Assembly (NCBI GenBank): GCA_003279615.1
Contig: QCHM01000009.1
Location: 1 to 60,575 of the forward strand
Direction of reading: 5' to 3'
DNA length: 60,575 nucleotides
Source of the DNA: Prochlorococcus sp. AG-402-B19
Lineage (GTDB): Bacteria > Cyanobacteriota > Cyanobacteriia > PCC-6307 > Cyanobiaceae
Positions 39,121 through 42,340 of the stretch are shown in pieces (within the stretch, counting starts at the first letter, position 1; the number at the start of each line of letters is the position of its first letter). The notes below the pieces were generated by a model. It ran no database searches, was not told where the DNA came from, and saw nothing but the letters and a program-made list of their open reading frames with translations. The position numbers were made by a program, and so were the translations under genes.

Positions 39121-39202
39121 GGGTCGGTGCCCGAGTGGTTAATGGGGGCGGACTGTAAATCCGCTGGCTACGCCTACGTTGGTTCAAATCCAACCCGGCC
39201 CA
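39121..39202 (+). tRNA. tRNA-Tyr (GTA)
   Basis: Cloverleaf: acceptor GGGTCGG pairs with CCGGCCC, D-arm, anticodon stem GCGGA/TCCGC with loop CTGTAAA (anticodon GTA), a long class II variable arm, and T-arm GGTTCAAATCC. It ends with discriminator A; the following CC is genomic. It lies 11 bp upstream of tRNA-Thr, and its last bases are duplicated in the distal repeat. Confidence 0.95.
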
Positions 39203-39293
39203 CCTTTCCACAAGCCCTTGTAGCTCAGCGGTAGAGCACTCCCTTGGTAAGGGAGAGGTCTCGGGTTCAAGTCCCGACGAGGGCATCGTCGGA
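39197..39293 (+). repeat. Direct repeat copy 1 (tRNA-Thr containing)
   Basis: A 97-bp segment that recurs perfectly at 42244-42340 in the same orientation. It spans the last bases of tRNA-Tyr (GGCCCA), the spacer, all of tRNA-Thr and CATCGTCGGA after it. Confidence 0.95.
39214..39285 (+). tRNA. tRNA-Thr (GGT), copy 1
   Basis: A 72-nt cloverleaf: acceptor GCCCTTG/CGAGGGC, anticodon stem CTCCC/GGGAG with loop TTGGTAA (anticodon GGT), T-arm GGGTTCAAGTCCC. It is identical to copy 2 at 42261-42332. Copy 1 is coupled to tRNA-Tyr. Confidence 0.96.
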
Positions 39294-39341
39294 ACCCAAG
39301 GCAGGGCAAGCGATCTAAGGCACTAGGATCGCAAATCTTTT

Positions 39342-39374
39342 AAAGTGGACGTCCATTTGTGGGTCCACTTTTTC
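39342..39374 (+). terminator. Terminator after tRNA-Tyr/tRNA-Thr copy 1
   Basis: A perfect 9-bp stem (AAAGTGGAC / GTCCACTTT, arms 39342-39350 and 39363-39371) followed by T residues. Copy 2 of the tRNA has a different terminator. Confidence 0.8.
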
Positions 39375-39402
39375 TGTTTTTAGACCATTAGAAGAAGCAG
39401 GA

Positions 39403-39585
39403 GTGGCTGGCAAGCACTCATTCGGAAGAAGGAAAACGATGACTGAGTTTTCTCCTTTTTTCTACAACTATCTGATTGCTTTTGGGTTATTTCTTGGGGC
39501 AATTGGATACTTTGCTTTAACAGACAATTGGCTGACATGTTCGGCTGGGAAAACAAAAAATAAAGCTATCTACTCCTTCTATTAA
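39403..39585 (+). CDS. Small hypothetical membrane protein, 60 aa (or 48 from ATG)
   Basis: The reading frame opens GTG at 39403, with the next ATG at 39439 giving 48 aa (MTEFSPFFYNYLIAFGLFLG). It has one hydrophobic helix (about residues 24-41 of the longer form) and a polar tail. It is the first ORF inside the repeat-bounded segment. No family recognised; the weaker start and position suggest accessory status. Confidence 0.5.
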   Translation: MAGKHSFGRRKTMTEFSPFFYNYLIAFGLFLGAIGYFALTDNWLTCSAGKTKNKAIYSFY

Positions 39586-39587
39586 AC

Positions 39588-40850
39588 TTAAAATCTATAG
39601 CGTATACCAATGGTTCCATTAGTATAATTACCATTTTCAATAGAAATTGTTCCAAAATCAAGCTCTGGGATAACCATTGTTTGCCCTTTAACGAATACGT
39701 CCATAACCTCAGAAGTTTTGTAACTCAACCCGTATCCAATTCCATATGTAAAGCCATTGTCTTCAACACCATCAATGTCAACATTTGTTGATCCAATAGA
39801 TGCACCAATAAATGGACTCCACTTCTTATCATCTTGGAAGTCATAATAATAAGAAGCCAACACTGAGTCGATTCGCGAGTCTGATTCAATCGAATATCCA
39901 AGCCACGACACTTTATCTGACTGGCCTCTCACCCAAGAGGCTTCAAGACGAGTACGACCAAAATCATATCCGATCCCAATATCTAGACCCAGACCAGCCT
40001 CAAATTCAATAACAGAATTTACTCCCTGAACATCAATATCTCCTATTTTACTACCACCAATACTGCTCGTGAAGTAAGAACCTTTACTATTTTCTTCAGG
40101 TTGAACTGAGAAGCTTTTACTACTATTTTCTTCAGGTTGATCTGAGAGACTTTTACTATTTTCTTCAGGTTGATCTGAGAGACTTTTACTATTTTCTTCA
40201 TGTTGATCTGAGAGACTTTTACTATTTTCTTCAGGTTGATCTGAGAGACTTTTACTATTTTCTTCAGGTTGATCTGAGAGACTTTTACTATTTTCTTCAG
40301 GTTGATCTGAGAGACTTTTACTATTTTCAGAAATGTAAGTATTTGGGGTGAGATTTCCTTCTGAATAGACCTCTTCTGGAATATCTAGATCAGAACCATA
40401 ACGATTGCGTGGTTGTTTTATTGCTTCAACTAAATTTGCAAGGATAAGATTTGGATCAAGGTCACATTCCACGCAAATTCTTCTACTTTTTGACTGGATT
40501 GAAGGAATAAAATACGTACGACAAAAATCAGCTGGATCTGAACTAATTCTCTCTATTTGAAGTTCATAGTCATAATAATTATCAGAGATTTTTTTTCTGC
40601 ACCAATATACAGCTGATGCATAATCAATAATTCCATATTGACCTAATGAATTGAATTCAGTTTGTGCAGAGATGGTATATTTTTTATCTTCTTTGGCTAA
40701 AGGTTGAATCTTCATTTGTGATTTCTTGGGACTGACGCAGGTTGGGTCATCAAGAGAAGATAAACATGTCTTATCAATCTCTTCATTAGTCTCACTAAGT
40801 ACAGGTAGAGGTAATAAAAGTATTAATGATGCAAGAAAAATTTTATGCAT
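39588..40850 (-). CDS. Outer-membrane beta-barrel protein with 11-aa tandem repeats
   Basis: A 420-aa protein from the ATG at 40850. A signal peptide is clear (MHKIFLASLILLLPLPVLSE). After a Cys-containing N-terminal domain come seven units of about 11 aa, mostly ENSKSLSDQPE, encoded by a 33-bp repeat (about 40097-40330). The C-terminal 150 residues are alternating beta-strands ending GTIGIRYRF, an OmpA/opacity-type barrel with a terminal Phe. It is probably an exported surface protein with a variable stalk. A longer frame (to 40928) is less likely. It lies inside the tRNA-flanked segment and is minus strand. Confidence 0.75.
   Translation of the reverse strand: MHKIFLASLILLLPLPVLSETNEEIDKTCLSSLDDPTCVSPKKSQMKIQPLAKEDKKYTISAQTEFNSLGQYGIIDYASAVYWCRKKISDNYYDYELQIERISSDPADFCRTYFIPSIQSKSRRICVECDLDPNLILANLVEAIKQPRNRYGSDLDIPEEVYSEGNLTPNTYISENSKSLSDQPEENSKSLSDQPEENSKSLSDQPEENSKSLSDQHEENSKSLSDQPEENSKSLSDQPEENSSKSFSVQPEENSKGSYFTSSIGGSKIGDIDVQGVNSVIEFEAGLGLDIGIGYDFGRTRLEASWVRGQSDKVSWLGYSIESDSRIDSVLASYYYDFQDDKKWSPFIGASIGSTNVDIDGVEDNGFTYGIGYGLSYKTSEVMDVFVKGQTMVIPELDFGTISIENGNYTNGTIGIRYRF
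40097..40330 (-). repeat. 33-bp coding tandem repeat
   Basis: Six near-identical 33-bp units encoding ENSKSLSDQPE, one unit with an extra codon (ENSSKSFSVQPE), and a partial one. One unit has His for Pro. The unit length is a multiple of three, so slippage would change stalk length but keep frame. Confidence 0.85.
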
Positions 40851-41045
40851 AATTACAATTTTCTTTATGTATTGGTGATTGATCTTTTTAAAGATATTAA
40901 TAAATAATATACTTTCAATTTCTACCATTGCAATTAATATTTGAAATAATTAACTTACCCTATTCCCATCTACCTAAGACTTTCCGCTGAAATAGTCTTC
41001 TATTAATCGCAATTGATCTCAGTTTAATGCCATTCACGGAAATGA

Positions 41046-41288
41046 AGTCTTTCAAATTCATATGGAAAGATTAAAAAATTTAATCAATCAACAAAATACT
41101 TATCTGCTTGTCTAGGTATAAATCATAATACTCTTCAAAAAATAATTCAAAGAGGTGAGCCTGAATCTGAATGGGGAAGAGTGGGGTAAGCAAAAGTTTC
41201 TATGGGATATACTTGGCATGACATACCTATAAGAACCAAAGAATTAGCAAATAAACTAGCTTTAAATCTGAATATTGATCCTGTTTAA
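41046..41288 (+). pseudogene. Decayed helix-turn-helix-like gene
   Basis: A frame opening after a TGA at 41043 without an ATG. It reads KFNQSTKYLSACLGINHNTL and QKIIQRGEPESEWGRVG, with a helix-turn-helix look, up to an in-frame TAA at 41187. The same frame then continues VSMGYTWHDIPIRTKELANK to a TAA at 41286. One stop interrupts an otherwise coding-like frame, consistent with a dying gene. A frameshift upstream may have removed the start. HTH identity is tentative. Confidence 0.45.
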
Positions 41289-41409
41289 GCATATCAATTG
41301 TTAGTAGAATATATTGAAAAAAATTCTTACTCTAACCAACCAATTATTTACTTTCTAGTAATAATTAAGTTTCTAATTAATCCATTAATATCTATTCTAT
41401 TCTTCCTAA

Positions 41410-41649
41410 ATTACTCCTCCTCTAAATCTTAGTATTCACCAGCCGGTTTGGAATAAGAAAGGTAAAAAAGTCCCCCTAAACATTCCTGTTTTAAGTGCTT
41501 TTGATTTATCTAAGAGATGCTGCCATGCAGGCTTCACCAAGCTCGGATACGCAAAAGAAAATAGGGAGTCCCCAACCCTGAAAGGAAGCAAAGTCTTTGA
41601 CCTGTCTAAGAGACAGTATCTCGTTTACTTCGATCACCAGTACCCATGA
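41410..41649 (+). pseudogene. Start-less open frame, possible gene remnant
   Basis: About 80 codons open between stops at 41407 and 41647 with no ATG, GTG or TTG near the front. The product has VWNKKGKKVPLNIPVLSAFD, LSKRCCHAGFTKLGYAKENR and a second FDLSKR near the end. The composition looks coding. It may be a fragment of a larger gene whose 5' end was lost. Confidence 0.35.
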
Positions 41650-41888
41650 CTGGCAGCATGAATCCGTTACTATCTCGGAATATTGGTATACGCCTTTTTA
41701 TGGACTATGTCTGCTGCGTTTAATGTCCAGCTCGACCCAAAGAAAACATCCTTCCTAAATCCCATCTAACAAAAACTGCTTATCACTGTTCTCTCTTATA
41801 GAACCCTGATTGGAATCAACGGGCACCACTCAGGGACTAAAGCCGCCGAAAAGTGATCTAACAACAGTTTTTAAATCTATATTTTGTC

Positions 41889-42146
41889 TTAGTCGTTTTC
41901 GGAAATCGTTTCAAGGAGTCGTGTAAAAACACTTTCTCGACTCTTCAATCCCCATTCAATTTTGAGTTCATCGACAAAGTCAATCAAGTTGTTGGGAAGG
42001 TTGATCGTAACTTTCGAATAATCCTTTTTGGAAGCCTTTTGCGATACGGCCAAAACGAAGAAATTCAATCTATTTGTATCAACGGTAACATATCTTTTTA
42101 ATGGATCACACCCTCTTAAACGTGGAATAAAGACAGATCCCAGCAC
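41889..42146 (-). CDS. Ribbon-helix-helix DNA-binding protein (CopG/ParD-like)
   Basis: The 85-aa frame starts GTG at 42146. The C-terminal half is a ribbon-helix-helix domain: KVTINLPNNLIDFVDELKIE then WGLKSRESVFTRLLETI. The first about 45 residues are not clearly conserved, so the true start may be later. RHH proteins serve as antitoxins or repressors of mobile elements. It lies at the right edge of the flanked segment, about 100 bp from repeat copy 2. No toxin gene is seen beside it. Confidence 0.65.
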   Translation of the reverse strand: MLGSVFIPRLRGCDPLKRYVTVDTNRLNFFVLAVSQKASKKDYSKVTINLPNNLIDFVDELKIEWGLKSRESVFTRLLETISEND

Positions 42147-42243
42147 TCCCTAAAAAAGATTTGGCCTTCTCTTGTTAATGGTCTACATTGCGTAGGCATC
42201 AAGTAATTCACTGACTTGCAAGGACGTTGAGGTGATCTCAAAA

Positions 42244-42340
42244 GGCCCACCTTTCCACAAGCCCTTGTAGCTCAGCGGTAGAGCACTCCCTTGGTAAGGG
42301 AGAGGTCTCGGGTTCAAGTCCCGACGAGGGCATCGTCGGA
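42244..42340 (+). repeat. Direct repeat copy 2 (tRNA-Thr containing)
   Basis: Base-for-base identical to 39197-39293. It starts with the last six bases of tRNA-Tyr (GGCCCA), although no tRNA-Tyr gene precedes it here, which shows the copy derives from the upstream locus. Confidence 0.95.
42261..42332 (+). tRNA. tRNA-Thr (GGT), copy 2
   Basis: A 72-nt sequence identical to copy 1, with a complete cloverleaf and anticodon GGT. It has its own terminator just downstream. It could be expressed, or be the reconstituted attachment-site tRNA of an integrated element. Confidence 0.95.

Follow-up and report, generated by a model that had tools for sequence, protein, structure and literature searches.

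A duplicated tRNA-Thr gene in Prochlorococcus and a probable decayed integrative element at a tRNA-Tyr/tRNA-Thr pair

How does a streamlined genome come to hold two identical copies of a complete tRNA gene on either side of 3 kb of DNA? The question is posed by a locus of Prochlorococcus sp. AG-402-B19 (assembly GCA_003279615.1; 1.55 Mb, 41 contigs, 87.5% complete), lying in a 60,575-nt stretch of contig QCHM01000009.1 that was read on the forward strand and is called the window throughout. Two segments of the window (Table 1) agree at 97 of 97 nucleotides on the same strand, 3,047 bp apart, and a chance match is excluded. Each contains a complete tRNA-Thr(GGT) gene scoring 72.1 bits against Rfam. 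A tRNA-Tyr gene precedes the left copy only, and the right copy opens with GGCCCA, the last six bases of that gene (ARAGORN places its end two bases further, at 39204; the gene is 82 nt long in most relatives). An original prediction made from the sequence had described this perfect repeat and its truncated tRNA-Tyr tail, and identity, spacing and both tRNA-Thr genes were confirmed on checking. These are the only near-perfect matches to the 97-mer in the assembly, which holds three more at 75-80%.

The segment is probably a decayed, non-autonomous integrative element inserted in the tRNA-Tyr/tRNA-Thr pair. Comparison among relatives supports, at the level of sequence, a left end, the 5' tip of an integrase gene, a right end, a displaced tRNA-Tyr 3' fragment and an empty-site flank. 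In the proposed mechanism, a tyrosine integrase would have recombined the element, in circular form, with tRNA-Tyr at the 3' end of this gene, where its T stem and acceptor stem meet. The left junction would then consist of a rebuilt tRNA-Tyr and, from the element, a spacer, a complete tRNA-Thr, a terminator and the integrase gene, and the two-tRNA operon would stay complete after insertion. The original tRNA-Thr would move to the right end, where a short piece of tRNA-Tyr precedes it, and would be redundant there. With a crossover in tRNA-Tyr, the left tRNA-Thr would thus belong to the element and the right one to the host, and cells that carry the insertion are predicted to need the former for survival. 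Later loss of most of the integrase gene would have left this genome with a cargo gene for an outer-membrane protein, and present-day movement would require an integrase supplied in trans or RecA-type recombination between the 97-bp copies.

Empty and occupied sites

An insertion predicts relatives with an uninterrupted locus, and these exist. The comparison set is coded by genome (G) and locus (L) numbers. Its genus part comprises 41 genomes, the window's own included, of which 35 match the 97-mer at E 1e-20 or better: 26 once and nine twice (the window's own genome, G006, G007, G014, G027, G028, G034 on two contigs, G036, and G037 over 57 nt only). The six genomes without a match include G020, at 92% completeness. 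Stretches around the tRNA pair, 35 drawn from 34 genomes, share the upstream genes dus, cobI, miaE, aroQ and tRNA-Tyr as far as the contigs reach, except for a second G034 contig, and vary in their contents downstream. Sorted by eye, the DNA behind the aroQ-linked tRNA-Thr is the window's left end in 14 genomes, a related left end in four (G026, G027, G037, G038), another flank in five (G002, G003, G010, G011, G031) and, in 12 of 35, directly the flank of the window's right copy, which we read as the empty site. The other flank may itself mark an insertion, because G002 has a 23-nt tRNA-Thr 3' remnant with the empty-site flank 2.5 kb further on.

The left tRNA-Thr leads into the element's left end, and the right tRNA-Thr into the empty-site flank, in the window as in G014 and G036; the window's two flanks match one continuous empty-site stretch, for instance 4005-4237 and 4141-4389 in G005. 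The right tRNA-Thr, with its chromosomal 3' flank, is most likely the original host gene, whereas the second copy had been predicted to derive from the left locus. On a tree of upstream genes, where the window's left end and its related form were scored as occupied and the other 16 rows as not (G033 and L129 left out), occupied rows number 20 of 36 and the tree requires a minimum of 10 changes, or 9 without the outside loci L124 and L126, a count made with no null run; occupied G014 groups with empty G023 (support 94/85). The cargo gene finds nothing but weak matches (25-34% identity), in three of the 40 other genus genomes, so the segment is not one that most relatives share. A mobile insertion at a tRNA locus, as had been proposed, is upheld by the empty sites and by the differing contents of occupied genomes; the proposed tycheposon class, taken up below, is not.

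Could the repeat be an error of a fragmented assembly? The contig of related G017 ends before any right copy, as such an error would allow. The two ends and the empty-site flank nevertheless recur in the same order in G014 and G036, and the double copy is present in the single-contig genome G006, making an artefact the least probable of the explanations considered.

The integrase family

Relatives supply what the window has lost. Behind the left tRNA-Thr, at 140 bp, lies the gene for a 326-aa tyrosine integrase. It is of the plain phrog_1/PF00589 type and is intact in G006 (PF00589 at E 3.1e-26) and in G036, the two being 84% identical. G014 has it in two frames; it is broken or truncated in G007, G009, G018, G019, G022, G025, G027 and G028, and reduced to remnants in G015 (aa 1-18) and in G017 (a tip seen by eye and a late piece). 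G006 and G036 thus have the integrase gene itself, and the window keeps a 51-bp relic; its own assembly, 87.5% complete, has no integrase match at E 1e-30.

Beyond the genus, an intact or broken integrase at E 1e-30 or better was found in 29 of the 300 family genomes drawn and in 11 of 59 genera, near-full-length members being 56-77% identical to the query across genera. ARAGORN was run on the 20 loci available for the 30 integrase matches, G006 and G014 among them, and in all 20 a tRNA-Tyr and a tRNA-Thr(GGT) immediately precede the integrase gene. A collection of named genomes gave nine integrase loci, all from Prochlorococcus, and the five opened sit at the same tRNA pair. The integrase was matched by 917 phage records, all below 60% identity, and the ten phage matches listed include one cyanophage, Cylindrospermopsis phage Cr-LKS3, at 28.4%.

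The association of integrase gene and tRNA pair speaks strongly against an ordinary segmental duplication, or an insertion through RecA of part of the host tRNA locus, in which no site-specific recombinase took part. The two copies do share a private C (39203/42250), and 97 bp of homology could serve RecA. With conserved ends, an integrase tip and the same architecture around different contents in many genomes, such an origin is very improbable.

One relative with an intact integrase, G036 (L067, oriented 4208-12418), carries cargo that by eye, no search being made, resembles an iron-uptake-type set with imelysin-like and di-haem oxidoreductase-like proteins.

The junctions and the place of strand exchange

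Among 20 stretches drawn from the family, the two shortest being 2.7 and 7 kb long, nine have a second complete tRNA-Thr at a distance of 3.4 to 17 kb. Another genus was represented by 61 genomes: the pair region is matched at least twice in 11 and not at all in ten. In seven of the 11 (G201, G249, G326, G338, G353, G355 and G357, the last at 10253 with 92%) a second match spans nearly the whole query, and a 46-nt fragment starting at the same base occurs in seven of the 61. Measured by ungapped counts, which indels in spacer or tRNA shorten, the right copy of this complete class mostly starts 6-15 nt inside the tRNA-Tyr 3' end. The tail is 12-15 nt long in G055, G097, G248, G201, G060, G338 and G355. 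In G117, G080, G249, G326 and one G353 copy the count stops at indels in the spacer, and in another G353 copy inside tRNA-Thr, the tail being visible by eye in each. Such tails stand before right copies in several genera, beside an alignable right end (19 chosen).

A rebuilt target and a displaced fragment mark the ends of genomic islands, and crossover sites in the T loop or at its junction are common, according to the available part of PMC4383910. The window presents this arrangement, with a rebuilt tRNA-Tyr on the left and the GGCCCA fragment on the right in the same orientation, and we infer a crossover near the T-arm/acceptor junction of tRNA-Tyr. The attachment (att) block is then better read as a short tRNA-Tyr core together with a tRNA-Thr that the element brings than, as suggested earlier, as a whole tRNA-Thr duplicated in an enlarged att core.

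A rival places strand exchange by the same element family inside tRNA-Thr. The right end would carry a tRNA-Tyr tail and a complete tRNA-Thr captured once in an ancestor, and the right tRNA-Thr would be the element-borne one. Such a site would suit the identity of the copies through the whole tRNA-Thr, the complete tRNA-Tyr at the right end of six genomes, and the presence in the right end of CAGCACTCCCT, which has 10 nt in common with the tRNA-Thr anticodon arm and at whose shared sequence the G307 right end is fused to tRNA-Thr. Nothing would be expected, however, to hold the tRNA-Tyr tail boundary across genera whose integrases are 56-77% identical, and the G307 fusion looks like a deletion because its genus has the complete type (G201, G249, G338, G353, G355, G326). 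Exchange within tRNA-Thr therefore seems unlikely, although it is the strongest competitor of a crossover in tRNA-Tyr.

Several observations weigh against the main reading, an integrative element with its crossover in tRNA-Tyr. The position of the crossover was not observed, nor was any circle or excision product seen. The tRNA-Tyr tail is a mere 6 nt in the window and in G256 and degenerate (3 nt) in G027, while six genus genomes have a complete tRNA-Tyr at the right end (by count in G014, G028 and G034, by annotation in G006, G036 and G007). Spacer variants, tried as a discriminator between the two crossover models, proved ambiguous, G007 and G036 pointing in opposite directions. In the window, G097 and G060 a private variant occurs in both copies, and the window's left end starts with TCGTCGGA, as does the chromosomal flank. 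A terminator scan of the window did not list the terminator-like 39342-39372; G001 has the left end and no integrase match; and the integrase query found no relative among viral contigs. Finally, in G034 a right end, tRNA pair and left end lie apart from an empty site.

That genome pairs an empty aroQ-linked site with a separate 12,377-bp contig (L065) on which right end, tRNA-Tyr, tRNA-Thr and left end follow in a row. A circular reading of the contig was rejected for lack of terminal overlap. By eye, L065 carries a frame resembling a serine recombinase.

Gene conversion between the two tRNA copies is suggested by private variants that are identical in both, such as the window's C, which most genus genomes lack, and by the chromosomal-type TCGTCGGA with which the left end opens in the window's genus. 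Right copies are altered in G007, G027 (anticodon CGT), G249 (one base), G326 and G353; left copies are unaltered among those read, except for a paired T-stem variant in G217 and G071 (the genus of G071 has the locus in three of four genomes), and a badly decayed left copy would escape the search patterns used. Tandem arrangements occur in G006, G028, G256 and G353. The G307 right end (L165) is fused to tRNA-Thr directly, at the shared GCACTCCCT.

Relation to tycheposons and other tRNA-site elements

A second insertion class at the same tRNA-Thr has a right end that starts from position 27 of the gene: G037 (L068), G357 (L209) and L211-L216. Partial right ends start there in eight rows, five of which had the left copy of a different genome as their reference, and also at 21, 22, 25 and, once, 54. 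The two separate clusters of starting points suggest that two recombination systems may act on the tRNA-Tyr/tRNA-Thr operon. The partial-class element of G037 encodes a 451-aa recombinase (PF00589 at merely 20.8 bits) and a D5-type primase.

That element is tycheposon-like, and its presence at the same tRNA-Thr, the shared organism group and the tRNA insertion would fit a segment that is a tycheposon or tycheposon cargo; so would the recurrence of 41414-41736 in G005 and, at most 3 kb from recombinase-like frames, in G021 and G038. The window's integrase relic, however, is of the canonical phage type as far as descriptions go, and a partial tRNA-Thr accompanies the G037 type of recombinase. 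None of three scanned open reading frames (39403-39585, 39588-40928, 41889-42146) is one of the other tycheposon hallmark genes, which are of replication and packaging type. The segment spans 3.05 kb against 4-200 kb for tycheposons, as given in the part of PMC10872708 available. Membership, which had been suggested, is thus improbable for this segment. Tycheposons, in the accessible parts of PMC10872708 and PMC10187409, resemble the present family as tRNA-associated cargo elements of the same organisms and differ, as far as seen and by description, in recombinase and junction type.

The proposed mechanism is a variant of known tRNA-site integration. As in Islander-class islands (available part of PMC4383910), the integrase gene lies beside a rebuilt tRNA, a 3' tRNA fragment marks the far end and tandems occur; unlike in those islands, the att block runs past the target tRNA through a complete downstream one. 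By the filters that the same source gives, Islander discards any hit that lies within a full-length tRNA gene and any candidate lacking an integrase frame, and would thus reject the window. Island finders built on tRNA fragments may have a blind spot here, and such islands are easily missed. In the tRNA-dependent lysogeny of actinobacteriophages (as far as PMC10865867 was accessible), a tRNA gene brought by the element likewise replaces a host tRNA lost by integration. In that system the target tRNA is not rebuilt, whereas here tRNA-Tyr is complete at the left junction and the tRNA brought is the next gene of the operon, beside the core. Picocyanobacterial elements at tRNA-Phe or tRNA-Cys (available part of PMC10187409) similarly combine an integrase beside one specific tRNA with variable cargo; they use other tRNAs, and their integrase was described as a novel subgroup, unlike the plain phrog_1/PF00589 type here. 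The same part mentions 'cryptic elements' of the Hackl et al. 2023 study, among which the present family may be. The accessible portions of PMC11476347 and PMC8371274 held nothing on complete tRNA copies left by integration. Titles and abstract openings searched showed no element of this kind at tRNA-Tyr/tRNA-Thr, which is not to claim its absence from print.

Long att identity that includes a whole tRNA sequence would be shared with two systems of other hosts and other integrases: phage HP1, whose identity reportedly extends over a tRNA cluster, and SLP1, whose identity is said to include a complete tRNA-Tyr.

We lean towards an 'operon-completing' att site, in which an integrase family of marine picocyanobacteria targets the first tRNA of a two-tRNA operon and the element's own site (attP) carries the whole second tRNA and a terminator. 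If true, the operon is restored on insertion and one full tRNA becomes superfluous, after which the paired copies evolve in concert, providing natural pairs for the study of concerted evolution. It would also explain how a streamlined genome could accept an insertion upstream of what appears to be its only tRNA-Thr(GGT), since the element brings a replacement; the gene looks single because the 97-mer has one match in most genus genomes. The two ends and the integrase family form a sequence signature for a gene-trafficking site in an abundant photosynthetic organism, where cargo differs among genomes and is here a predicted outer-membrane protein.

Ends and contents of the segment

The left end contains a hairpin, GCGATCT-AAGGCACTA-GGATCGC (39310-39332), and an inverted pair, AAAGTGGAC...GTCCACTTT, with a T run (39342-39372) that looks like a terminator by eye and by fold. 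This stretch folds somewhat better than shuffles (z -2.0; 4/200 as good), and the pair with its T run is present in most left ends compared. At the other end, GTGGAC occurs in 11 of 19 aligned right ends, the window having GTGGAA. The inverted pair and GTGGAC may represent a terminator plus integrase arm sites. The left-end hairpin pattern gave 20 matches in 18 of the 41 genus genomes, all beside this tRNA-Thr, and a reversed control gave 0; the right-end motif gave nine matches in nine of 41, all in this island (that of G037 inside it, not at its end), and stands just upstream of a second full-length or near-full-length copy in all eight genus genomes concerned (the window's own, G006, G007, G014, G027, G028, G034, G036). 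The MAFFT alignment of the hairpin slipped one base between subtypes, and pairing was therefore read by eye: around the loop AGGCACT the stems change on both sides among genomes. A similar loop lies behind the right tRNA-Thr in G097 and G060.

Between the copies lie one long open reading frame and several small ones. No housekeeping gene was found among the three scanned with Pfam, in keeping with the original prediction, and the 2,950-bp segment has no match among phage records. The 85-aa product near the right end, by our reading of its sequence a putative ribbon-helix-helix protein, has no match in Pfam or NCBIfam.

Table 1. Features of the locus, in window coordinates
Feature	Position	Strand	Basis
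Complete tRNA-Tyr(GTA), opening the pair; its 3' end is the proposed integration target	39121..39202	+	ARAGORN
Left copy of the 97-bp repeat (attL side)	39197..39293	+	Sequence identity
tRNA-Thr(GGT), left; proposed element-borne copy	39214..39285	+	ARAGORN, Rfam; 3' flank is the element left end
Element left end; possible integrase arm sites	39286..39383	+	Comparison with relatives
Integrase gene relic, 17 codons of 5' end (aa 3-19), 88% to intact G006 integrase	39384..39434	+	Comparison
Cargo: 446-aa predicted outer-membrane beta-barrel protein	39588..40928	-	PF13505 E 2.1e-5, 25.2 bits, below cut-off 28.7
Small gene, 85 aa, near right end in relatives too	41889..42146	-	phrog_18767 (function unassigned) E 1.9e-5
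Element right end; conserved motif ~42133-42165, CAGCACTCCCTAAAAAAGATTTGG at 42141-42164	42118..42243	+	Alignment
Right copy of the 97-bp repeat	42244..42340	+	Sequence identity
tRNA-Tyr 3' fragment GGCCCA, proposed attR core	42244..42249	+	Comparison; 12-15 nt in seven other genomes
tRNA-Thr(GGT), right; proposed original host gene, severed from tRNA-Tyr	42261..42332	+	ARAGORN, Rfam, flank comparison
Empty-site chromosomal flank with inverted repeat and T run	42341..42405	+	Flank class; inverted repeat from scan, reported on minus strand
Adjacent DUF1651 gene, which several relatives have downstream of the empty site too	42493..42837	-	PF07864 E 3.2e-26

The outer-membrane-protein gene contains 33-bp tandem repeats (40088-40330). 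Further right, 41414-41736 has counterparts of 91-95% identity in G005, G021 and G038, at places other than this locus, and no gene or RNA was recognised in it. Just outside the element lie a Cyano-1 RNA (43527-43593, minus strand) and a Glutamine-II riboswitch (43910-43972, plus strand).

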